The notes under the pieces were generated by a model. That model saw only the letters and a list, made by a program, of their open reading frames with translations. It was not told the DNA's origin and searched no databases. A program made the translations under genes and the position numbers. DNA of 64,000 bases, taken from assembly GCA_021769425.1 (NCBI GenBank), contig JAETSX010000008.1:62001-126000 (forward strand), written 5' to 3'. Positions within the stretch are counted from its first letter, which is position 1; the number at the start of each line of letters is the position of its first letter. This document shows positions 51,551-62,997 of the stretch, one piece after another. The DNA is from Eubacterium sp. (GTDB lineage: Bacteria; Bacillota; Clostridia; Lachnospirales; Lachnospiraceae).

Positions 51551-51734
51551 TCCATAAACCTCCAAATGTAAACCAAATCATTCTGTTTTTTTCTATTATA
51601 GACCTATTTACTGATTAGTACAACGAAAATTTAAATCCTGGGAACGGTCCGGGACTGGAAATAAATTCCTTGAACAAAAAAGCAGGATGGTTTACTGTGG
51701 CATTTTGGCTGAATACAGCAAGTTTTGAAGCATT

Positions 51735-51764
51735 GTCATAACTATGGCAAATCATTCATACATT
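51735..51764 (+). promoter_or_regulatory. Sigma-E-like promoter of the truncated spoIIID copy
   Basis: GTCATAAC (51735-51742), a 14-bp spacer and CATACATT (51757-51764) match the mother-cell sigma-E pattern (-10 CATACAnT). The spacing and -10 are identical to those before the intact spoIIID. Confidence 0.7.
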
Positions 51765-51793
51765 ATAAAAAAACAATGTATGAGGGAATTTCG

Positions 51794-51925
51794 TTGAAAG
51801 GGTACATAGAGGAACGGGCGGTTAATATCGCTAATTATATAATTGAGGAAAATGCTACGGTGAGGCAGACGGCGAAAAAATTTGGAATTAGCAAGAGTAC
51901 GGTACATATAGTTATAACAAAATAG
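51794..51925 (+). pseudogene. Truncated spoIIID copy (43 codons)
   Basis: TTG start with GAGGGA 6 nt upstream. Residues 1-38 are identical to the intact SpoIIID at 62737, through the HTH residues KFGISKSTVH. The last five codons diverge (IVITK) and end in TAG, so the recognition helix is cut short and the C-terminal half is missing. Sixteen of the first 38 codons differ synonymously from the intact copy, so the duplication is old or the copies come from different lineages. The region upstream, including the sigma-E-like promoter, is also duplicated. Confidence 0.85.
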
Positions 51926-51958
51926 AATGGTTTATATGGAAAATAATATAAATATCGG

Positions 51959-52003
51959 AAGCCATCTCTTAGAATATCAAAGGTATTCAGAGATGGCTTT
52001 ATT
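51959..52003 (+). terminator. Hairpin after the truncated spoIIID
   Basis: AAGCCATCTCT pairs with AGAGATGGCTT with further inner pairing (GAATA/TATTC), followed by TATT. Confidence 0.65.
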
Positions 52004-52022
52004 ACTGCCACATGGAAATTGA

Positions 52023-52051
52023 TTGTGAAATAGAGCGGGATAGGGTATAAT
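52023..52051 (+). promoter_or_regulatory. Promoter of the AAA-ATPase gene
   Basis: TTGTGA (52023-52028) and TATAAT (52046-52051) with a 17-bp spacer. It predicts a roughly 165-nt leader containing three CCTGAG motifs (about 52056, 52107 and 52160). Confidence 0.75.
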
Positions 52052-52221
52052 ATGCCCTGAGAAGAGACCATATGGCTTAAGGAGGGGCCTGCCGAATGAG
52101 AGGATGCCCTGAGGGTCTTTTGCAGTCACCAATGAAGTAGATTGAAGTGGGAGGAGTCCTGAGGGCGCGTACCAGGGAAATTATGGCATTTGGAAATCAG
52201 TATTAGATGGAGGCGGCAGTG

Positions 52222-53919
52222 ATGAATAAAGCGTTACCGATTGGTGTGGAAAACTTTAAGGATATTATGGAGTCCGGTTATTACTATATAGATAAATCAT
52301 TATTGATAAAAGAATTGTTGGACTTGAGAGGAAAAGTGAATTTATTTACTCGGCCAAGACGTTTTGGAAAGACGTTAAATCTCAGTATGCTTAGGTATTT
52401 TTTTGAGGATACGGGTGACGCGGTGAAAAATGAGGAGAATAAATTGCTTTTCCAGGATTTGAAGATTATGGAACAAGGCAAAGAGTATGAAAAACACATG
52501 GGAGGGTATCCGGTTATCAACCTGACATTGAAATCAGCGAAACAGCCAACCTTTGAATCGGCATACAGCAAGATGAAGAGAGCAGTCGCAGATGAGTTCC
52601 AGAGGCATCAGGATATATTAGCCAATGAAAAAATTAGTGAAGAAGATAAGAAGCTCTTCCAAAAAATTGCAGATCGGAGGGCAGAATATGATGATTATTC
52701 CGGAGCATTGGAATTTCTAAGCAAATGCCTTCACCAGGCGACGGATAAGAAGACAGTGATTTTGATAGATGAATATGATGTGCCGCTTGAAAATGCTTAT
52801 TTTCGAGGATTTTATGAGGAAATGGTGGATTTTATCCGCTCATTATTTGAGTCTGCGCTGAAGACGAATCAGCATTTACAGTTTGCAGTTATTACCGGAT
52901 GTCTGCGGATTTCAAAGGAGAGTATATTTACGGGACTGAATCATCTGAATATTATTTCTGTGCTTGATAAAAAATACAGTGAGCATTTTGGATTTACAGA
53001 ACAGGAAGTTCTTCAGATGATGTCCTATTATGAAGTGGAAACCCGTTTTTCAACAATGAAAGAGTGGTATGACGGATACTTATTTGGGGATACAGAAGTT
53101 TATAATCCGTGGAGTGTGATCAAGTTTTTGTATGATTTGTATTCAGATGTAGATGCATTTCCCCATCCCTATTGGATCAATACCAGCTCCAATGACATTA
53201 TCAAGGATCTGGTTGCAAGGGCTGACCGGGAAATGAAAGGGCAGATGGAACTGCTTTTAGGCGGTGGAACCTTAGACATTCAGGTTCATGAGGAAGTTAC
53301 CTATGGAGATATGCACAGTAATCAGGAGAGCCTGTGGAATTTCCTTTATTTTACGGGATATCTGACAAAAGAAAGTGAATATTTTAAGGAAGCGTCTATT
53401 TTTTTGCGAGTGCGGATTCCAAATGTAGAAGTGAGGACGATTTATCAGAATACCATTTTAAATTGGATGAAGGACGTCATAAAAAAGGAGGATTTCCGTG
53501 ATCTGTATCAGGCGATGGAAGACGGAAATGCCCAGAAGATGGCGGATATCTTGAATGGGCAGCTTTTCCGTACAATCAGCTTCTATGACAGTGCAGAAAA
53601 CTTTTATCATGGATTCCTGACAGGGATATTAAGTCAGAGTGAAAATTATTTGGTGAAATCAAATCGTGAGTCAGGCAACGGCCGTTCTGATATCATGGTG
53701 CGGAGTCCTTCGCTGCGGGGCAGGTCTTTTATTTTGGAAGTAAAGGTGTCGGATTCGATTGATGATTTGGAGCGGGATGCGAAAGAGGCATTGCAGCAGA
53801 TATATGACAGGAAATACGCGGAGGAATTACGGACAGAGGGGTATCGCAGGATAGATTGTTATGGGGTGTCTTTTTTCCGGAAAGACTGTGAGGTCCGATT
53901 TGGGAAAGGGGAAAATTAA
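52222..53919 (+). CDS. AAA-ATPase-like protein with PD-(D/E)XK nuclease-like C-terminus
   Basis: 565-residue member of the AAA-ATPase-like/DUF1703 family, abundant in gut Clostridia and Bacteroidetes. The N-terminal P-loop variant [17 protein letters not shown] (about 34-50) follows [13 protein letters not shown]. Walker B-like [11 protein letters not shown] is near 180. The C-terminal domain has the nuclease-like motif [21 protein letters not shown]. Function is not established; a mobile or defence-related role is often guessed. The ATG at 52222 has GGAGG 8 nt upstream. Confidence 0.85.
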
Positions 53920-53996
53920 TCCTATTTGCAGTACTGCTCTGTAAAAATTCTTTGATGCTTATTTCCTCTCCTGAAAAACTGGTTTATTACTCCGGC

Positions 53997-54093
53997 GGGC
54001 ATCAAGCCGGGCAGCCGCGCTGGCGCGGATATTTGGCGGCTGCCGCGAGGGTCGAATACTCTGCAGCTCCGCTGCATTGCAAGTTTAATGCCC
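53997..54093. repeat. Nested palindromic intergenic element
   Basis: Outer pair GGGCAT (53997) and ATGCCC (54088-54093). An inner 9-bp pair GGCAGCCGC (54010-54018) and GCGGCTGCC (54036-54044), plus a small CTGCAGCTCCGCTGCA palindrome. The right end overlaps the last codons of the minus-strand lipoprotein gene. Confidence 0.6.
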
Positions 54094-55098
54094 CATCAGC
54101 TTGCTGCGAGAGAGTTGACTTGACAAATAGGCATTAATTCGTATCTGGACATTTTTCTGCAAATTGCGATAAAAGAACTGATAGTCATACAGATGATAAA
54201 TACCGTTTTCAAATATATCAAGTCCGGCAGGATATTCCTCAGGCGTTACATCTGTTACCTTTAATGTGCCTCGGACATCATCAATGTATGCGCCTGTAAG
54301 ATTGTTGATTTCTTTCACAATATTGCCATCATAATCTGTAAAGCATGCGCCGAGATTAAGACTTTTGTCTGCAATAGCTGAATCTGTCTTCCAGTTAAGA
54401 GGATTGATTGCAAGGGTTTTTGTTCCCTTCGGAACAGGAAGGGAATGGTCAATGCTCTCTGCTTCACTGTTGAAGGATATAATCACTCCTGTATCGCTTT
54501 CGCCTTCGGCAAATTTCAATTGCGGATACTCCCGGGTTTCTTCTTCCGTAATACGCCAACCGATTGCGTAGCAGGCGATTAGCTGATCTTGTATCTTCTC
54601 ATCCTTGAAGAGCTCCTTCATAAGCCTGATACACATATCTGCTCCTTGTGAAAATCCTGCGAGAATAATCGGTCTGCCGTCGTTACAGGTTTCATAATAA
54701 TACTCAAAAGCATTCTTAACATCATCAAATGCAAGTTCAAGATACTGCTCACGGTCACTGGTTTCCATTGCGTAAACATTCAATCCCACCTGCCGATAAT
54801 ACGGCGCAAAGAAACGGCTGTCACGGTCATAGATTTCTTTTTCCATATTAGTTGCGCCGAGGAAGTCTGCTTTTGTATCCTCATCTGTAAGCTCCATATT
54901 GTATGAGTCATCTGAGCCAAAATACACAGTGGGACACACAAAAAAAACGTCTGCTGTCGTGTCTGTTGTATCCGTTTCAAAATATGACCAGTTTGAGTTA
55001 TCAGAATAGTCAGTTGCATTTGTTTGATTTGAGCAGCCTGAAAGACTGATTGAAAGAATCAATATAAAAGTCAAGGGAACTATCAATATTTTTTTCAT
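54085..55098 (-). CDS. DUF3089-type alpha/beta-hydrolase lipoprotein
   Basis: 337 residues. A signal peptide with lipobox (ISLSGC) predicts a surface lipoprotein. The body resembles DUF3089 lysophospholipase-like hydrolases: ADVFFVCPTVYFG near the N-terminus, the nucleophile elbow GFSQGADM, and the late YQFFYRNLQKNVQIRINAYL. The substrate is unknown. The start at 55098 gives a canonical MKKILI signal peptide; the upstream in-frame ATG at 55110 sits almost on top of the AGAAAGG site. Confidence 0.82.
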   Translation of the reverse strand: MKKILIVPLTFILILSISLSGCSNQTNATDYSDNSNWSYFETDTTDTTADVFFVCPTVYFGSDDSYNMELTDEDTKADFLGATNMEKEIYDRDSRFFAPYYRQVGLNVYAMETSDREQYLELAFDDVKNAFEYYYETCNDGRPIILAGFSQGADMCIRLMKELFKDEKIQDQLIACYAIGWRITEEETREYPQLKFAEGESDTGVIISFNSEAESIDHSLPVPKGTKTLAINPLNWKTDSAIADKSLNLGACFTDYDGNIVKEINNLTGAYIDDVRGTLKVTDVTPEEYPAGLDIFENGIYHLYDYQFFYRNLQKNVQIRINAYLSSQLSRSKLMGH

Positions 55099-55156
55099 AT
55101 TTACGACCATACCTTTCTGCTTTGTTACATCAATGAAATTGGATTCAGAAATCCTT

Positions 55157-56473
55157 TCATATTTTCAGCGTCACATCTACATAAAACTCCGAGCCGCTAT
55201 TGGAAGCCTGTGCCGATCCACCGTATTTTTCCGCGGCGGTAGCGATGGAAATAAGTCCGGTTCCTTTCCCGCCATGCTTTGTGGAACGATAGCCATCCTT
55301 CCCCTTTTGTACCTTGCCGTCAAAACTGTTGGTGGAAACGATGTACAGCCTGTTGCCGTGGCGAATCTCCGTGGTCAGACAGAAATAGCGCCTGTTTTTC
55401 GGTATGGTAAGGCATCCGTCAATGGCGTTTTCCATCAGGTTCCCAAACAGGGAAGCCATGTCAAGCTCGGCGGCAGGCAGCGGTTCCGGCAGCTCAATGC
55501 GCCAGTCCGTGTCTATGCCTGCAGAAACAGCCATTTCGTAGTAATAACCAAACAGCGCGTTCAATGCTGCATTGGCGCAGAAGTTTACAGGCGTGTTTTC
55601 AGAAAGGCTGATTTCATATTCTGCAAGGTGTGACCGGATGCTGCCGATATCGCCTTCTTCCGCAAGGGAGGAAAGCAGGTGTATGGAATGGCGGAAGTCG
55701 TGGCGCAGCCTGGCAGTCTGGCGCATATGCTCCTGCAGTGTCCGGTACTGACGGGACTGCATCTCAAGGAGCTGGGTGTGTTCCTTCAGTCTGGCATGAT
55801 CCAGTATGACCGTCGTACCCCAGTAGAAAAGCAGGTAGATTGCTGTAAGGAACGTAAACAGACACCCCTCTAACAGTGGGAAAAGGTAAAACATGCGCCC
55901 GGTATGGAGAGTGCGGTAGGACTTGGGGACAGCAAATATATTGAAAATAAGGAATACCGCAGACAATGCGACTGTCGAGTACCATATTTTCGGGAGGTCC
56001 AGGCAGTCAACCATCTGGAAAAAATATCGGCAGGCCGGCCATGCGAAAGAGGCTGCGACCAGGCAGGAAAGCCCAAGCCGGAAAAAAGCCGCTTCCATGG
56101 AGAAATCTGGAGCGCCAGACAATGGGTGCAGGTAAGAGTCAAAGGCATAGGCAAACTGCGCCGGGAAGGTCTGTACGGCACAGACGCCCACATAGACGGC
56201 AAGGCACTTTGACAGGCTGGCCGTTACGGTGCGGCGGTATAGGAAAAAGAACAGGATGAGGGACGGCAGGAGGATGACGTTTGCCTCAACCCGCAGCATG
56301 GCGCAGAGACATGAGCAAAGAAAAGCGTATGGAAGCAGGACAGCCGTGCATAGCGCGGCCGTCTTAACTGGTGTGTGCCTCATCTGGTTCTTCATTGTAT
56401 AGTAGCAGGATGCCGCAAAAGGCAGCAGTATCAAAAACTGTGGCAGCGCCGACAGCCATCTGTTCATATCCAT
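55157..56473 (-). CDS. GHKL-type sensor histidine kinase
   Basis: 438 residues. About six membrane segments (1-205) lead to a cytosolic kinase core. The phospho-acceptor region is LRHDFRHSIHLLSSLAEE, the N-box is GNLMENAIDGC, and the ATP-lid region is KHGGKGTGLISIATAAEKYGG. This is the AgrC-like arrangement that partners LytTR regulators. It overlaps the response regulator gene by 10 bp. It has no obvious 5TMR_LYT or GAF domain, so it differs from BtsS/LytS sensors. Confidence 0.92.
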   Translation of the reverse strand: MDMNRWLSALPQFLILLPFAASCYYTMKNQMRHTPVKTAALCTAVLLPYAFLCSCLCAMLRVEANVILLPSLILFFFLYRRTVTASLSKCLAVYVGVCAVQTFPAQFAYAFDSYLHPLSGAPDFSMEAAFFRLGLSCLVAASFAWPACRYFFQMVDCLDLPKIWYSTVALSAVFLIFNIFAVPKSYRTLHTGRMFYLFPLLEGCLFTFLTAIYLLFYWGTTVILDHARLKEHTQLLEMQSRQYRTLQEHMRQTARLRHDFRHSIHLLSSLAEEGDIGSIRSHLAEYEISLSENTPVNFCANAALNALFGYYYEMAVSAGIDTDWRIELPEPLPAAELDMASLFGNLMENAIDGCLTIPKNRRYFCLTTEIRHGNRLYIVSTNSFDGKVQKGKDGYRSTKHGGKGTGLISIATAAEKYGGSAQASNSGSEFYVDVTLKI

Positions 56474-57249
56474 GTTCGGTCTCCCTTTCTGATGCCGTTT
56501 GGCACAGGGCGTCCGGCAAAGTGCGCCTGGCGCTCACGTATCTTCCTGAAATTGTAATCCCTCGCTGCCTGCTCAATTTTCAGGCGGTCCCGTACACGGA
56601 TCGGAAACTGTGCACCATTTTCCAGTATGCAGCAGTTGTCTCCAAATTCAAGGATGTAATCGGCATTTATGGTGATTCCTTTGTTGACGGGAAGAAAGCG
56701 GGCGTCTCTGCCGGTCAGATCCAAGAATTCCGTCATGGTCATGCGGCAGCGCAGCTTTCCCCCATCTGTAAGGACGATGTCAAGGTAATGTGCGTCCGTG
56801 GCAACGGACGCAACTTCGTCAAGGAATATCTGGACGGTTTTCCTGTCGCTTATCACCTCTATGTATTTCTGCGGCGGGGGAAGCACTCCCAGAATATCCG
56901 TGAGAACCCCAAAGATGCGCTGTGGAGAGAAAGGCTTGGTGATATATTCAAAGGCGTGGCAGGAGAAGGCGTCCGGCATAAAATCCATACTGGAGGTTAA
57001 AAAGACGAGGATGCACTTGTTATCTAAGCTCCGCATTTTCAGTGCGGCTGCAACGCCATCTATGCCGTCCATGTATATGTCCATGAAGACGGCAGAAAAG
57101 CCACCGTTTTTAAATGCCTCAAGGAATGCCTCCCCATTTAAGAATGGAACAATTTCCATCTGACAGCAGCGCCCTGCGCCAAAGTCGCGGATAAGCTCTG
57201 CCATCTCGTCCAGACATTTCTGTTCATCATCCACTAAAGCGATCTTCAA
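56464..57249 (-). CDS. LytTR-family response regulator
   Basis: 261 residues: a receiver domain (about 1-120; VDDEQKCLDEM, phospho-acceptor Asp in VFMDIYMDGIDG, Lys in YITKPF) and a C-terminal LytTR DNA-binding domain (about 135-235; VASVATDAHYLDIVLTDGG, FLPVNKGITINADYI). It forms an operon with the histidine kinase and is transcribed divergently from the lipoprotein-cstA-alkylsulfatase group. The start follows TGAGGTGA on the minus strand. Confidence 0.93.
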   Translation of the reverse strand: MKIALVDDEQKCLDEMAELIRDFGAGRCCQMEIVPFLNGEAFLEAFKNGGFSAVFMDIYMDGIDGVAAALKMRSLDNKCILVFLTSSMDFMPDAFSCHAFEYITKPFSPQRIFGVLTDILGVLPPPQKYIEVISDRKTVQIFLDEVASVATDAHYLDIVLTDGGKLRCRMTMTEFLDLTGRDARFLPVNKGITINADYILEFGDNCCILENGAQFPIRVRDRLKIEQAARDYNFRKIRERQAHFAGRPVPNGIRKGDRTWI

Positions 57250-57287
57250 ATCGGTTTCACCTCAATTCCATATAAAAATCTAATATA

Positions 57288-57316
57288 AACATAGCACAAA
57301 AAAAGTCATTTTTCAA
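57288..57316 (-). promoter_or_regulatory. Promoter of the two-component operon
   Basis: On the minus strand TTGAAA (57316-57311) and TATGTT (57293-57288) with a 17-bp spacer. Confidence 0.6.
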
Positions 57317-57353
57317 ACCTGTCAATCATCAATTTTCAAATTATAAGAACCCG

Positions 57354-57388
57354 ATTGACGTTCTTGCCAGAAAATTGACGTTCTTGCC
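57354..57388. promoter_or_regulatory. Putative LytTR operator: direct repeat
   Basis: ATTGACGTTCTTGCC occurs twice (57354-57368 and 57374-57388) with a 20-bp period, two helical turns, as expected for tandem LytTR binding. It ends about 30 bp before the -10 TATAAT (57418) of the plus-strand operon, a position that suits activation. Confidence 0.75.
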
Positions 57389-57417
57389 AAAATGCTTTTT
57401 TTATTTGCCGGAAGATG

Positions 57418-57423
57418 TATAAT
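57418..57423 (+). promoter_or_regulatory. -10 element of the lipoprotein-cstA operon
   Basis: TATAAT with only a poor -35 (CTTTTT, 57395-57400), consistent with an activator-dependent promoter next to the LytTR repeats. Confidence 0.6.
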
Positions 57424-57492
57424 AGGAAAAGTTTTGTACCTATTGACAACGGCGTTTCATACGATACGTTCACAAAATTTAGGAGGAATTCT

Positions 57493-58215
57493 ATGAAAAA
57501 GAGATTATTTTCTGTCATGATTATTGTATTTATGGCAGCTATACTTGCCGGCTGTGCAAAAGGAGGTGAAACGGCAAAATCTCCCGAAGAACTTTATCGG
57601 GACGCGGTCAGAGATGCGGCTTTTGCCGATGATGACGAAATATTGCCGTTGGTATCGCTTGTGGAAAGTGACCCAATGACTACATGGCAAAATGGCAAGG
57701 CGCTGCTTCTTACCTGGCACAATTACCCTGAAAGTTATCCTGAGGGCGAAACTGTTACCATTGAGTGGGGGCCGGTGTGGGTGTTTACCGATAAAGAAAT
57801 AGCCTCCCATGCTGAGGAATTGCAAAAGGCAGATGATGCCCAGGCACGGTTAAAGCAGATCATTTCGTTTGCTCCTGATTCCGAACATTCCACTGTAACA
57901 GGTCTTTGGGTAGACCCCAAAAACGTAAAGCGCCCGGCTTATCAAAGCGATCCAACCATTGAGGATATGTCCAACAGCTTTGATGAAAACGTTGACGAGG
58001 ATTTTAAGTCCTGGTTTGATGATAACACGCTGTGGTCGTATTTTTATGGTGAATATCCGTGGACAAGGCTTGGATATACCTACGATTGGGCGGATAATGA
58101 CACGGAATACGGAATGACGGAATTCATTGTGGAGGACGGCGCCGAGGTGACCGTGGAATTCACCGAAACTACAGAGGAATTTTTAAACAGAATTACCAAT
58201 GACAAGGAAGGATAA
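57493..58215 (+). CDS. Lipoprotein of unknown function
   Basis: 240 residues. The signal peptide ends with lipobox ILAGC. The mature part is acidic and Trp/Asp-rich (ESYPEGETVTIEWGPVWVFTDKE, YPWTRLGYTYDWADNDTEYG). I do not recognise a family. The start at 57493 is set by TTAGGAGG. It is the first gene after the LytTR repeats and lies 21 bp before cstA, so it may assist the transporter or the sensor at the cell surface; this is inference. Confidence 0.8.
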   Translation: MKKRLFSVMIIVFMAAILAGCAKGGETAKSPEELYRDAVRDAAFADDDEILPLVSLVESDPMTTWQNGKALLLTWHNYPESYPEGETVTIEWGPVWVFTDKEIASHAEELQKADDAQARLKQIISFAPDSEHSTVTGLWVDPKNVKRPAYQSDPTIEDMSNSFDENVDEDFKSWFDDNTLWSYFYGEYPWTRLGYTYDWADNDTEYGMTEFIVEDGAEVTVEFTETTEEFLNRITNDKEG

Positions 58216-58236
58216 CAAAAGGCAGGGTTTGATCAT

Positions 58237-59946
58237 ATGAATGGATTTATTATCATTATTCTGGCAGCTGTGGTTCTGGTCAGCGCTTATATGATTTATG
58301 GCCGCTATCTGGTAAAAAAGTGGGGAATTGATCCCGATGCAAAGACGCCCGCTTACACCGAAGAGGATGGGGTGGACTATGTGCCCGCAGACACAAATGT
58401 GGTCTTTGGCCATCAGTTTGCGTCGATTGCCGGCGCTGCCCCAATTACCGGTCCTATTCAGGCTGCGGTGTTCGGCTGGCTTCCGGCATTGCTTTGGATT
58501 TTGATCGGCGGTGTGTTCTTTGGTGCAGTACAGGACTTCGCTGCCATGTACGCGTCGGTAAAAAATAAAGGGAGATCCATTGGTTATATCATCGAAAAGT
58601 ATATTGGCAGGACTGGAAAACGTCTGTTTTTGATTTTTGTGTGGCTGTTTTCTATTTTAGTCATCGCTGCTTTTGCAGATGTCGTGGCAAGTACGTTTCA
58701 GGGATTTGACGAAGAAGGGGTGAAAATAGCAGCAGATGGGGCGGTGGCGACTACATCCATACTGTTTATTGTATTTGCGGTTGGGCTCGGATTTTTTCTG
58801 AAAAACACCAGCTTCCATGCAGGAATCAACACGCTTGCGGCAATTCTGCTATTGGTGGCTGCCATTGTGATTGGTATAAATGCGCCAGTTTATTTCAGCC
58901 GTGAGTTCTGGCTTATGTTTGTATTTGTTTATATTTTAATTGCCTGCGTTACTCCGGTGTGGGCGCTGCTTCAGCCGAGGGATTACTTAAACAGCTATTT
59001 GCTGATTGCAATGATGCTTATGGCATTTATTGGAATTATTGTTTACCGTCCGGCAATGAATCTGGCGCCGTTTACTTCTTTTATGCTCGTCAATGAAGAG
59101 GCGGGGACGGTCTCTTATTTGTTCCCGGTTCTGTTTGTGACGATTGCCTGCGGTGCGGTATCAGGGTTCCATGCACTGGTATCCTCCGGAACCGCTTCCA
59201 AGCAGATTAAAAATGAAAAGGCAATGCTTCCGGTATCGTACGGAGCAATGCTGCTGGAGAGCTTTCTGGCTGTAATCGCACTGGTCAGCGTTGGTTTTGC
59301 GGCAACAGCCGAAGGGCTTCCTACGGGAACGCCTGCACAGATATTTGCCACATCAATTTCCATTTTTCTGACAAAATTAGGGTTGCCGCAGAGTGTTTCG
59401 TATACGTTAATCACATTGGCGGTATCTGCGTTTGCTCTAACCAGTCTGGATTCGGTTGCCCGTGTAGGAAGGCTTTCCCTGCAAGAGTTTTTTATGGAAG
59501 AAGACAGAGAAATGGGACGGGCCGCGAAGGTATTTGGAAATAAGTGGACGGCAACCGTTCTAACCCTGGCGCTGGCATTTCTTCTTGCAAAAGTCGGCTA
59601 TGAAAGCATCTGGCCGCTGTTTGGTTCTGCAAACCAGTTGTTATCTGCGCTGGCGCTCATTTCCTGTGCCGTATTTTTAAAGAAAACCAAGCGTCAGGGC
59701 ATGATGCTCTGGGGACCGATGTTTCTTATGATGGCTGTTACTTTCACGGCAATTGTTCTGAAAATCAAGGAATTGGTTACTTCTCTTTGCAGGGAGTTTG
59801 ATTCTGGGAATGCGATTCAGCTCGTATTCGCCATTTTGTTGCTGATTCTGGGCGTCATGGTGGCGGTAGAAGGGCTGCAGAAACTCTTTTGTCCAGGTTT
59901 TCGGAAGCCCCAAGAAATAAAATCTGAAGATTCTGAGAAATTATAA
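58237..59946 (+). CDS. cstA: CstA-family carbon starvation/pyruvate transporter
   Basis: 569-residue polytopic membrane protein with the CstA hallmarks YGRYLVKKWGIDPDAKTPA, GHQFASIAGAAPITGPIQAA, SGFHALVSSGTASKQI and LTSLDSVARVGRLSLQEF. CstA/BtsT proteins import pyruvate or peptides. In E. coli the LytTR system BtsSR controls btsT, so the adjoining GHKL/LytTR pair is a plausible regulator. The ATG follows AAAGGCAGGG. Confidence 0.93.
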   Translation: MNGFIIIILAAVVLVSAYMIYGRYLVKKWGIDPDAKTPAYTEEDGVDYVPADTNVVFGHQFASIAGAAPITGPIQAAVFGWLPALLWILIGGVFFGAVQDFAAMYASVKNKGRSIGYIIEKYIGRTGKRLFLIFVWLFSILVIAAFADVVASTFQGFDEEGVKIAADGAVATTSILFIVFAVGLGFFLKNTSFHAGINTLAAILLLVAAIVIGINAPVYFSREFWLMFVFVYILIACVTPVWALLQPRDYLNSYLLIAMMLMAFIGIIVYRPAMNLAPFTSFMLVNEEAGTVSYLFPVLFVTIACGAVSGFHALVSSGTASKQIKNEKAMLPVSYGAMLLESFLAVIALVSVGFAATAEGLPTGTPAQIFATSISIFLTKLGLPQSVSYTLITLAVSAFALTSLDSVARVGRLSLQEFFMEEDREMGRAAKVFGNKWTATVLTLALAFLLAKVGYESIWPLFGSANQLLSALALISCAVFLKKTKRQGMMLWGPMFLMMAVTFTAIVLKIKELVTSLCREFDSGNAIQLVFAILLLILGVMVAVEGLQKLFCPGFRKPQEIKSEDSEKL

Positions 59947-59947
59947 T

Positions 59948-60015
59948 ATTACTCCGCCTTGCATATGAAGATTTGTTCTGCGTAATCTACTGCGATATTT
60001 AACCGCCGGAGTAAT
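59948..60015. repeat. Inverted repeat flanking the cstA-alkylsulfatase gap
   Basis: ATTACTCCG (59948-59956) and CGGAGTAAT (60007-60015) are a perfect 9-bp pair with a 50-bp separation. The role is unclear: it could be an mRNA structure separating cstA from the sulfatase gene, or an operator. Confidence 0.45.
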
Positions 60016-60036
60016 ACACAATTAAGGAGGAAAATT

Positions 60037-62148
60037 ATGTTCAACAAGAAAAAACGTGCTGCCTGTGCCGCGATTTTGCTGGCAGCCTCTTCTGTTTTCT
60101 GCGCATGTGCGCAGACAAAACAGGACACTGCTGCAATATCAAACAATGAAACAACCTCTGAAAAATCAGCGGAAACTGCTATTGAGGAAGATATGTCAAA
60201 AGACAACGAAAAGGTTTCTTTTAACACGGATGTAAAAGATGCAACTGAATTCACGGCAGAAGCAAATAACGCCGTTTATGAGCTGCTGGACTTTTCCGAT
60301 GAACAGGAGCGTGAGTTTGCACAGAAAGGTTTCCTTTCGGCTCCAGACAACCTTGTCATCAAGTCAGAAGACGGAACCGTGGTATGGAGTCAGGATGCCT
60401 ATAGCTTTGCCAAGGATAACGATGCTCCGGATAGCGCAAATCCAAGCCTCTGGCGTAATACACAGCTCAATGCGCTCTATGGATTGTTTGAAGTGATAGA
60501 TGGAATTTACCAGGTTCGGGGATATGATGTGGCGAATCTTACGTTTGTCCGCGGAGAGAAAGGATGGATTGTATTCGACTGTACTACAAGCATAGAGACT
60601 GCTGAGGCAGGGCTTGCATTGTTCAGGGAGAAATTCAGTGATGCCAAAATCTCCGCTGTCGTCATCAGCCATGCCCATATCGATCATTACGGGGGCATCG
60701 GTGGCTTAGTAACACAGGAAGATCTGGCAGATCCCTCGCTAAGCCTGGAAGAACAGGCAGCCTCCGGTAAAACCCTCCTGATTGTGCCGGAAGGATTTGA
60801 GAAAGCAGTCATGGAGGAAAACGTCTTTGCTGGAAACGCTATGAAGCGCAGAAGCAATTACCAATACGGCTCGCTTCTGGAAAAAGGGGAGCAGGGCAGT
60901 CTTTCTGTGGGAATCGGCCTTACTACGTCTGGCGGAACAACTTCATATTTATCTCCAACCTATGAGGTGACGGATGATATTTTTGAGGCAACGGTAGACG
61001 GCGTTGATATGGTATTCCAGCTCACCCCGGGTACAGAATCCCCGGCAGAAATGAATACATACCTGCCCGGGTACAAGGCGCTCTGGATGGCGGAAAACTG
61101 CACTGGCACCATGCACAACCTTTATACACTGCGCGGTGCAGAGGTGAGGGATGCCAATGCATGGGCACAGTATATCATGGAAGCAGAGGCACAGTTTGGA
61201 GAGGAAGCGGAGGTTGTGTTCCAGTCGCATAATTGGCCGCATTGGGGCAATGACGTAATCAATGAATACCTCTTAAATACAGCGTCTGTCTATAAATATA
61301 TCTATTCCCAGACGCTTCAGTACATCAATGAGGGCTATACTTCAACTGAGATTGCAAATATGATATCTTTACCCGCAGATTTGGAAAAGGTCTGGTACAC
61401 ACGTCAGTATTACGGCACATTGGAACATAACGTAAAGGCTATTTACCAGAAATATATGGGGTGGTATGACGCAAATCCGATTCACCTGGATGAACTTGAA
61501 CCTAGCGAATGTGCCAGGAAAATGGTGGAATATCTAGGTGATACGGACGCAGTCCTTGCAAAAGCAAAGGAAGATTTCGACAAAGGCGAATACCAGTGGG
61601 TTGCCCAGATTACCAATACTATCGTCTATGCAGATCCGGACAATGAAAATGCTCGTTACCTTTGTGCAGATGCTTTGGAACAGCTTGGATACCAGGCCGA
61701 ATCCGGGGCATGGAGGAATGCTTATCTGACCGCCGCCTATGAGCTGCGCCATGGAACAGGCGACTATCCTCAAACAAGCGCAGGAGGAACAGGCGCTACA
61801 TCATTCGGCATGAGCACGGAGACAATGTTGGATTATCTCGGAATCTGTCTCGATGCTAAGAAGATGGAAGACCAGAATCTTACCATTCTTCTGCAAATCA
61901 CGGATGAAGACAGCCAGTACCTTGTACAGATAAACCACGGCGTGCTTTTATATTCTAAGGATACACATAGTGTAGAACCAGATGTAACCATCAAGACAAA
62001 ACGCGTTGGTATTCTGGGAATTGCACGGGGGAGCAGTGAATTGATGGACGCTAATTTTGAATCTGTGGAAGGAAACAAAGATGTTATTGAAACTCTGACT
62101 GGAAATTTAGCAGAGTTCCCATCATACTTTAATATTATAGAGCCATAA
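60037..62148 (+). CDS. Metallo-beta-lactamase-fold alkylsulfatase
   Basis: 703 residues, SdsA1/BDS1-type linear alkylsulfatase. An N-terminal signal sequence ends in a Cys-rich CACAQ, possibly a lipoprotein. The metal site SHAHIDHYGG is near 209, with further family motifs NWPHWGNDVINEYL, the dimerisation-domain YQKYMGWYDANPIHLDELEPSE and an SCP2-like C-terminal domain (about 580-703). It would release sulfate from alkyl sulfate esters outside the cell. AAGGAGG precedes the ATG. Confidence 0.9.
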   Translation: MFNKKKRAACAAILLAASSVFCACAQTKQDTAAISNNETTSEKSAETAIEEDMSKDNEKVSFNTDVKDATEFTAEANNAVYELLDFSDEQEREFAQKGFLSAPDNLVIKSEDGTVVWSQDAYSFAKDNDAPDSANPSLWRNTQLNALYGLFEVIDGIYQVRGYDVANLTFVRGEKGWIVFDCTTSIETAEAGLALFREKFSDAKISAVVISHAHIDHYGGIGGLVTQEDLADPSLSLEEQAASGKTLLIVPEGFEKAVMEENVFAGNAMKRRSNYQYGSLLEKGEQGSLSVGIGLTTSGGTTSYLSPTYEVTDDIFEATVDGVDMVFQLTPGTESPAEMNTYLPGYKALWMAENCTGTMHNLYTLRGAEVRDANAWAQYIMEAEAQFGEEAEVVFQSHNWPHWGNDVINEYLLNTASVYKYIYSQTLQYINEGYTSTEIANMISLPADLEKVWYTRQYYGTLEHNVKAIYQKYMGWYDANPIHLDELEPSECARKMVEYLGDTDAVLAKAKEDFDKGEYQWVAQITNTIVYADPDNENARYLCADALEQLGYQAESGAWRNAYLTAAYELRHGTGDYPQTSAGGTGATSFGMSTETMLDYLGICLDAKKMEDQNLTILLQITDEDSQYLVQINHGVLLYSKDTHSVEPDVTIKTKRVGILGIARGSSELMDANFESVEGNKDVIETLTGNLAEFPSYFNIIEP

Positions 62149-62227
62149 CAGCATGATAAAGAAGTGTGAATACGTAACCTGAATTTTGGCTCACGATCTC
62201 TTTGGTGGGAAAAGCCATTTTAAAAGC

Positions 62228-62505
62228 TTATCCGGCTTGTGCAGCGTATTGCTTCTGTATGAGTTTTATGGTTTCCAGGTTGACGCCCTGCCCTCTTAGG
62301 AATTGAATGGTATGTTCTGGATTGAGGGCAACAGGCTTTTGTTTCATAGGATGGACTGCGGCTTCATAGCCATCCGGGTGGAAATCCCCGTTATTTGCCA
62401 GCATGTGGAAAATGCTGGCAAGCATCATCCTTGCAATGGCAACGATTGATTTTTTCTTTCTGCGTCACTTTGCAAGAAGCGGATATTTAATCCTCCATGG
62501 TCAGG
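62228..62505 (-). pseudogene. IS110-type transposase C-terminal remnant
   Basis: The minus strand encodes KKKSIVAIARMMLASIFHML followed by ANNGDFHPDGYEAA, resembling the C-terminus of IS110/IS116/IS902 transposases. The frame continues upstream through IKYPLLAK but is broken by TGA at 62465-62467, where a Trp codon would fit. No N-terminal half or catalytic DEDD domain is present. It lies directly before the intact spoIIID, in the 62149-62736 gap. Confidence 0.5.
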
Positions 62506-62676
62506 AATAGGAGCTTGGGGATGTCCAGATGTTTGCGTTCGAGTGGATGGATAAGGTCTGAGAAATAATGGAAAAGAACCGGAAAAGAGAAGTGGCCAGG
62601 CATAAAAAGCTATCAGACAATACTATCATGGAACTTTTAGAGTTATGATGACAATACTGTCAAAATAAACGCCGTT

Positions 62677-62706
62677 GTCATAACTGATGCTAATCCTTCA
62701 TACATT
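62677..62706 (+). promoter_or_regulatory. Sigma-E-like promoter of spoIIID
   Basis: GTCATAAC (62677-62684), a 14-bp spacer and CATACATT (62699-62706). spoIIID is a known sigma-E target in Bacillus. Confidence 0.8.
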
Positions 62707-62736
62707 ATAAAAAAAGCAATGTATGAGGGATTTTCG

Positions 62737-62997
62737 TTGAAAGGATATATAGAAGAGCGTGCCGTTAATATTGCCAATTATATCATCGAGGAGAATGCTA
62801 CTGTGCGGCAGACGGCAAAAAAGTTTGGAATCAGCAAGAGTACGGTACATAAAGATGTAACAGAACGTCTTGCGCAGATCAATCCGGCCATGGCAGCCCA
62901 GGCCAGGAAAGTTCTGGATGTGAATAAATCGGAAAGGCACATTCGGGGCGGACTGGCAACCCGGGAGAAATACCTGCATCAAAGAGGAATTGTCTGA
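62737..62997 (+). CDS. spoIIID: Sporulation transcription factor SpoIIID
   Basis: 86-residue mother-cell regulator acting between sigma-E and sigma-K. MKGYIEERAVNIANYI, HTH TVRQTAKKFGISKSTVHKDV, then the C-terminal HIRGGLATREKY basic region. The start is TTG at 62737 with GAGGGA 6 nt upstream. The in-frame ATG at 62719 would lie only about 7 nt after the predicted transcript start and has no site. A truncated duplicate is at 51794. Confidence 0.95.
   Translation: MKGYIEERAVNIANYIIEENATVRQTAKKFGISKSTVHKDVTERLAQINPAMAAQARKVLDVNKSERHIRGGLATREKYLHQRGIV

Follow-up and report, generated by a model that had tools for sequence, protein, structure and literature searches.

A spoIIID half-gene beside an intact spoIIID in Eubacterium sp. 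as a probable relic of recombinase elements that target this gene in Lachnospirales

Introduction

The closest described systems are mobile elements that split sporulation genes. In B. subtilis and C. difficile the skin element, which encodes a large serine recombinase (LSR), interrupts sigK, a sporulation gene of the mother cell, and excision rejoins the gene. In C. difficile, vegetative cells as well as both compartments produce the skin LSR, and excision is timed by CD1234, a small factor controlled by sigma E and SpoIIID (PMC5025042). A recombinase, att sites and a split sporulation gene are likewise found for gin in gerE of B. cereus, vfbin in spoVFB, SP-beta in spsM and yin in yabG (PMC5595907, PMC10747680, PMC6957869), and gin, too, splits the gene of a small regulator; in the portions of these descriptions available to us, spoIIID is not listed among the split genes, nor are tandem relics next to a restored gene mentioned. 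We analyzed 64,000 nucleotides of Eubacterium sp. (Lachnospiraceae; assembly GCA_021769425.1, contig JAETSX010000008.1, positions 62,001 to 126,000), hereafter the window, in which a truncated copy of spoIIID lies about 11 kb upstream of an intact one. SpoIIID is a key mother-cell regulator. With a probability of roughly 80%, we read the window as containing the dead remains of one member of a family of mobile elements that insert through an LSR into codon 44 of spoIIID and whose splits would be rejoined by excision; in the window the intact gene would have been restored.

Two other systems share features with this locus. Genomic islands at ssrA of Dehalococcoides, associated with a Ccr-related serine recombinase, stand in tandem at one gene and are bounded by copies of the gene end, and those without integration genes have been read as possible cis-mobilizable, accreted elements (PMC3146451). 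As described there, they repeat the 20-bp 3' end of an RNA gene, whereas the spoIIID relics repeat a promoter and 44 codons and occur alongside a split state. Cis-mobilizable elements (CIMEs) have lost their integration genes, kept their att sites and stack in tandem (PMC5704250). The window segment has likewise lost integration genes; of the att sites it keeps a decayed attL, and its right end is attB-like.

In the parts of the open-access literature on interrupted sporulation genes that were consulted, the split genes are sigK, spoVFB, spoVR, spsM, gerE and yabG, and spoIIID is not reported as split; an LSR survey (PMC10083194) may list such targets in its supplement. Within the same scope no spoIIID-targeting element family was found described, and it is the family that we regard as the interesting part of the findings below.

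Results

Two copies of the spoIIID 5' region in the window

Self-comparison of the window aligned 51767-51922 with 62710-62865 at 86% identity and 51733-51773 with 62675-62715 at 88%, the whole repeat spanning 51733-51922 and 62675-62865. The repeat pointed out in an earlier note, made from the letters of the window, is therefore real. Each copy starts with a sigma-E-like promoter on the forward strand (51733-51775, including the 5' untranslated region, and 62675-62718), with the -10-like sequence CATACATT and a spacer length of 14 nt common to both. The left promoter has the form GTCATAAC-14 nt-CATACATT, and the same block precedes both the separate 5' halves (N-halves) and the intact genes of relatives. 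It is followed by an orphan spoIIID 5' half (51776-51925, forward strand; alternative TTG start at 51794), which encodes 49 aa matching SpoIIID residues 1-49 and then stops. The right copy is an intact spoIIID (62719-62997), so no sporulation gene is split by the segment. The genome has these two SpoIIID matches, covering residues 1-49 and 1-92.

Codons 7-44 of the two copies show 16 synonymous and no non-synonymous differences. Recomputation from the TTG start (51794/62737) gave the figure of the earlier note, 16 differences in the first 38 codons, all synonymous; the upstream in-frame ATG (51776/62719) as start adds one difference, I/F at codon 5. Similarity drops from codon 45 and the left frame ends at a stop at 51925, also as noted before. 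An identical run of 19 nt ends at this break and contains TACAT (51903-51907 and 62846-62850), the att core of the elements described below. A chance repeat was ruled out: the left copy has the same truncated form as in split relatives, where the same tailed half-gene is the left end of elements.

Split spoIIID genes in the genus

The genus set comprised 29 genomes, the window genome included. Only intact spoIIID was found in 21, a split gene in seven, and a half together with a whole gene in the window genome alone. G017 has two full-length spoIIID genes on different contigs (C108 and C131) of one draft genome. The seven split genes are interrupted at one site with both halves kept, one half containing residues up to about 50 and the other residues from about 34-41 on. 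The halves are separated by 6-21 kb on the same contig in five genomes and lie on different contigs in two. All seven split loci have an LSR of about 508-532 aa, directly upstream of the 3' half in five, and leuA lies 3' of the 3' half in every case. Resolvase, Recombinase and zinc-ribbon Pfam domains were identified in the LSR of the one tested locus (L115), and comparison with solved structures returned two short recombinase chains only, matching the LSR N-terminal domain. In L112 and L113 the chemoreceptor gene, a spoIIID flank in other genus members, lies inside the element, and excision would remove it.

An empty-site allele, which the earlier note had suggested looking for in relatives, exists, for example in G023, with the order topB-chemoreceptor-spoIIID-leuA. 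This contradicts the situation that the note had named as refuting its reading, in which relatives offer no empty-site allele. In 21 pairwise, non-independent comparisons among the seven splits, the N-halves differ by 297 synonymous and 16 non-synonymous codon changes and the C-halves by 443 and 68, a pattern consistent with selection on both halves as components of a functional gene.

Attachment sites and phage contigs with a free attP

The 5' halves terminate near AGTACGGTACAT; an arm resembling ATGGTAGTAACAAAATAGAACGGT comes next, and the 3' halves start after CGTTC...ACAAC..TACAT or near variants. Virtual attP sites assembled from the two ends of the seven elements are symmetric about the same point in 13 to 17 of 24 pairs, which none of 1000 shuffles reached in five elements, 4 of 1000 in G012 and 22 of 1000 in G014. 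The symmetry centre falls between the C and the A of TACAT, in the His44 codon, and is the probable crossover point. In the window, attL (51903-51935, forward strand) is present but altered: it consists of the core and an element arm that departs from the consensus at 4 of 24 positions (0 to 6 in other arms) and is changed at two positions invariant in the 8 other arms compared. The right junction is attB-like, with a symmetry of 9 (reached by 733 of 1000 shuffles), and no true attR was found there.

A genome with the promoter and first codons in duplicate could also result from a simple tandem or dispersed duplication of spoIIID, with later truncation of the left copy and no mobile element. 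The left copy, however, ends in an element arm common to the split genes of relatives and to phage attP, and with this attL tail an ordinary gene duplication was rejected as extremely improbable.

Four IMG/VR contigs of 50-119 kb (L197-L200) encode an LSR of this family (69-72% identical), with an attP directly after it; the 21.5 kb examined of each contain no SpoIIID match. L198, L199 and L200 are near-identical, with the same gene layout and attP, and were counted as one phage type. Their attP is symmetric at 19 of 24 positions (0 of 1000 shuffles); L197, with the core TGCAT, was omitted from this test. Phage DNA polymerase families were matched in L197 and L198, an anaerobic ribonucleotide reductase in L198, tail-type proteins in L197, and a terminase in one of the four records, that of L200. 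Besides the LSR family and a matching attP, these phages share a cargo gene with the window: the product of the second gene after attP in L198 is 75% identical, over nearly its full length, to that of window positions 52207-53919. Unlike these contigs, the segment between the window repeats encodes no proteins with Pfam matches to phage replication, tail or terminase families. Plasmid and phage collections gave no LSR match of at least 60% identity, the best being MT838016 (L201; 56.6%), a human faecal contig labelled Bacteriophage sp. Read by eye, it encodes an LSR followed by a spoIIID 3' half; it was rejected as a phage and taken as a chromosome-element junction.

Split genes in the order and beyond

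The order set consisted of 392 sampled genomes, 274 of which have a SpoIIID match; 50 of these were chosen by us for weak or double matches and searched again. Both halves were present in 35, one half only in 12, and neither case applied in 3. Given this selective search the 35 are a lower bound (at least 35 of 392); G271, G067 and G345 are not counted among them, and G290 is counted as split despite an additional divergent full paralogue. The latter, a SpoIIID-like gene (57%; L160:18133-18384), lies beside the split one. The two halves are on one contig and strand in 15 genomes, on opposite strands of one contig in 2 and on two contigs in 18. In G102 and G259, the two with opposite strands, rejoining would need an inversion, not an excision. 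An LSR (46-87% identical) lies directly upstream of the 3' half, on the same strand, in 25 of the 31 such loci retrieved. Joining at codon 44/45 gave an open frame for 29 of 29 pairs, that is, for those of the 42 split genomes with both halves retrieved; G405 among them is without the usual core.

In a tree of LSRs the genus falls in probably four places, with SH-aLRT values of 84-99 for three groups and G024 in an open fork, and an LSR of family f17 (G280) groups with one of family f1 (G384) at 98. Among cross-family pairs, the 15 closest (each f1 against G189 of f17) have LSRs that are 73-82% identical and SpoIIID proteins that are 63-68% identical. Judged by the tree and these identities, the elements seem to move and to have hit codon 44 of spoIIID repeatedly. 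A C-half search of 245 genomes of the class, some of them from the order itself, gave three short C-half frames among the matches listed (G476, G487 and G593). An LSR lies upstream of the 3' half in G476 and G487 (36% and 42% identical), both outside the order, and the G593 frame is at a contig edge; the three, found by the C-half search only, are likely splits. Comparison across all these genomes establishes an element family with an LSR that usually sits beside the spoIIID 3' half, att sites with the common core TACAT, an attP in unintegrated phage contigs and halves that join in frame.

A candidate directionality factor

As in C. difficile skin, the LSR of the spoIIID elements tends to be accompanied by a small conserved protein. 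This protein of 55-80 aa was found in 27 loci taken forward, phage contigs included (L199, L200, L205 and L074 were left out as duplicates or as a relic locus), and the examples tested have no Pfam or NCBIfam match. Upstream of its gene, a CTATTT-like sequence followed after 12-15 nt by CATA occurs in 15 of the 27 loci, against a mean of 0.14 and a maximum of 2 in shuffles. By analogy with CD1234 of C. difficile, the protein is a candidate directionality factor behind a sigma-E-like promoter. Unlike in skin, the target is spoIIID itself, so such a factor could not depend on SpoIIID. Upstream of LSR genes, for example in L159, L187 and L192, a TTTACA-TATAAT promoter-like sequence precedes TAACAGAACG, which repeats the right arm of attB. 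A TAACAGAACG-like site precedes the LSR in 13 of 29 loci and a strict sigma-A box is present in 7 of 29; binding and repression by the LSR of its own promoter through this site is only a lead.

The segment between the copies

The left-end cargo gene shared with L198 (52207-53919, forward strand) encodes an AAA-ATPase_like and PD-(D/E)XK protein. It is followed by genes for a DUF3089 protein (54085-55110, reverse strand) and a GHKL histidine kinase and response regulator pair (55157-57249, reverse strand), which form a cassette also found in G012, after its 5' half, and in G018, upstream of its intact gene. Genes for a protein without Pfam match (57415-58215), a CstA carbon starvation protein (58237-59946) and an alkyl-sulfatase family protein of the metallo-beta-lactamase fold (60037-62148), all on the forward strand, are common to G018, the last of them beside its intact spoIIID. 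An open frame at 62228-62428 (reverse strand), labelled an IS110-type remnant in the earlier note, has no Pfam match and no second copy in the window genome, and the label was neither confirmed nor refuted.

A search of 51926-62675 for the LSR at E 0.01 gave no match, in line with the earlier remark that no integrase is visible. In the window genome, the best-scoring of 24 matches is 30% identical to the element-type LSR and none lies on the window's contig; a 73-aa piece elsewhere in the genome is 48% identical. These results bear on whether the 11 kb could still be active in this strain as a skin-like element, with excision in the mother cell, a possibility that the earlier note had also considered. 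The direct repeats around accessory genes would suit it; unlike skin, the window has no LSR and spoIIID is intact, and the attR is missing and the attL arm changed. We give excision of this segment hardly any credence.

Mosaic structure of the intact gene

In a 132-nt tree, computed without support values, the left copy falls with G024 and G014 and then with G023, G018 and G028; the right copy, in its 5' half, groups with G013 and G022. This 5' half (codons 1-44, 62719-62850, forward strand) is of the G013/G022/G003/G020 type and non-native; the 3' half (62851-62997, forward strand), which adjoins leuA, is of the native type and, together with the downstream DNA, nearest G015 and G023. The left flank (topB, chemoreceptor) is nearest G023. 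A two-parent fit of the right copy (G013, then G023) left 23 mismatches, compared with 41 or 34 for one parent. The best breakpoint is at nt 138-140, with 105-154 at one more mismatch, and the att core occupies nt 127-131; the alternative parents G022 and G015 gave 24 mismatches and a breakpoint at nt 99-110. The two-parent gain of 11 is the largest among 21 genes, and 2 of 500 permutations reached it. A recombination product with DNA from a relative, one of the origins offered in the earlier note, is thus supported, the right copy combining a foreign-type 5' half with a native-type 3' half. Among 15 intact genus genes with a gain of at least 2, the best breakpoint lies at nt 105-155, around the att core, in 8, hinting at repeated swapping of 5' halves in the genus in a post hoc comparison of non-independent genes.

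The intact gene could have been restored by homologous recombination alone, between a G012-like split chromosome and a G018-like or clade-A chromosome with an intact gene. One crossover would lie in the cassette common to both and the other in the spoIIID 3' half or further right; the element origin would be unchanged. The layouts are suitable: G012 has N-half-AAA remnant-DUF3089-histidine kinase-response regulator on one contig and LSR-C-half-leuA on another, without a CstA match, and G018 has DUF3089-histidine kinase-response regulator-unnamed protein-CstA-metallo-beta-lactamase-intact spoIIID, with no N-half match. The window cassette (54085-62148) is 82-90% identical to that of G018 at the nucleotide level. 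However, the best breakpoint lies near the att core rather than at some other point of the 3' half or leuA; relics beside intact genes are found again in other genera, with different cargo; and the 5' half of G018 itself is of the native type. We regard this route as possible, with the odds somewhat against it.

Recurrence of relics

Among 80 named intact loci, seven have upstream 5' halves with attL-like tails, L049 having two. A 5'-half match upstream of the intact gene, on the same contig and strand, was present in 8 of 18 further genomes, likewise hand-picked, mostly for double matches, and is decayed in G109 and G142. In G341 (C1:115000-166000, L214-L216) five relics, two of them decayed, are spread over 48 kb before one intact spoIIID. 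The cargo of this array, from translations read by eye, includes CRISPR-Cas-like, TRAP-transporter-like and CoA-transferase-like genes. A 25-aa LSR scrap lies just before the intact copy of G109 and the candidate factor is retained in L074; on these grounds restored genes seem to follow LSR elements. In 11 of 15 relic loci scanned, the window included, no LSR or factor match was found, and those in L091 and G172 are weak only.

By eye, the repeated block extends from near the promoter to codon 44 in most of 13 aligned loci. Between non-decayed relics and their intact copy 0 to 24 of 114 nt differ, which suggests that 5' halves have often been imported. Both features would be expected of capped elements, cassettes whose right end bears a sigma-E promoter and the first 44 codons. 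Insertion of one at the core would keep the gene whole and push the old 5' half aside as a relic, and the LSR may act in trans; the five relics of G341 and the mosaic junction near the core also fit. Against this, a capped element with an LSR was not found, the attP of the phages is uncapped, and the block is not fixed, the similarity extending at least 110 nt further upstream in L044 and the L077 relic being without promoter. LSRs also do not usually recombine attL-like with attB sites. Capped elements are a tentative proposal, no better placed than homologous recombination alone.

Discussion

The decayed insertion suggested in the earlier note, with skin and SP-beta as parallels, is well supported: relatives have LSR elements at codon 44, and the window keeps the left end of one. 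The elements in split relatives look like skin-type elements in a new target gene. In the sequence of events that we favour, an LSR element would have inserted into codon 44 of spoIIID and split the gene. In split relatives the element would be cut out in the mother cell by the LSR, probably together with a small directionality factor expressed under sigma E control. In the lineage of the window, the native 5' half would have persisted with its attL tail (51733-51935), next to a single element gene (52207-53919), and the LSR end would have been lost. A foreign-type promoter and 5' half would then have become fused with the native 3' half, at the att core or close to it, giving the intact gene. 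Such a restoring step appears to recur in other genera and may repeat, leading to arrays of relics. We infer excision, its sigma-E timing and the restoring step from comparison of genomes.

Several observations weigh against this account. Excision in split relatives is deduced and not observed, and the sequences hold no trace of how the foreign-type 5' half arrived. The mosaic test was post hoc, and the intact gene of G013 has a nearly equal gain of 10. In G004 and G027 (L112, L113), a chemoreceptor gene stands between the LSR and the 3' half. LSR adjacency fails in 6 of the 31 3'-half loci, the LSR being elsewhere in the element in 2 and absent or unrelated in 4, and the halves of G102 (L175, L176) and G259 (L177) are on opposite strands. 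No 55-80 aa protein of this kind was detected in G121 and G132, whose elements are complete; the sigma-E-like pattern before its gene was fitted after these related sequences had been viewed, and a scan of 16 elements with a general sigma-E pattern gave one unconvincing hit. A strict attP pattern had no match in viral contigs and the 392 genomes; it excluded the L198 sequence, and genomes contain the integrated form.

More broadly, spoIIID of Lachnospirales may be a developmental recombination hotspot, exploited by phages and elements derived from them, with a split state and a relic state, at which capped elements enter with the gene left whole, stack and swap 5' halves at the att core between species; we offer this as a conjecture, somewhat short of an even chance. 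If it is true, the split state would need the LSR and a sigma-E-driven small factor to rebuild spoIIID in the mother cell, the switch that starts late mother-cell transcription would be a DNA rearrangement, and the window would be a single-relic example with an imported 5' half.

In E. coli, the combination of attP, attB and LSR can be tested directly, and annotation might call spoIIID broken or missing in split genomes. Two strains of Anaerostipes hadrus with different sporulation outcomes reportedly differ in spoIIID among other genes (PMC12888040). The series from a split gene through a relic with an intact gene to an array of relics offers a route to study how hosts escape dependence on skin-like elements, a step not met in the open-access literature on such elements that we consulted. 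If many gut Lachnospirales have a two-piece spoIIID, their sporulation depends on a phage-type recombinase, which would bear on the transmission of spores between hosts and perhaps on gut isolates that do not sporulate in culture.

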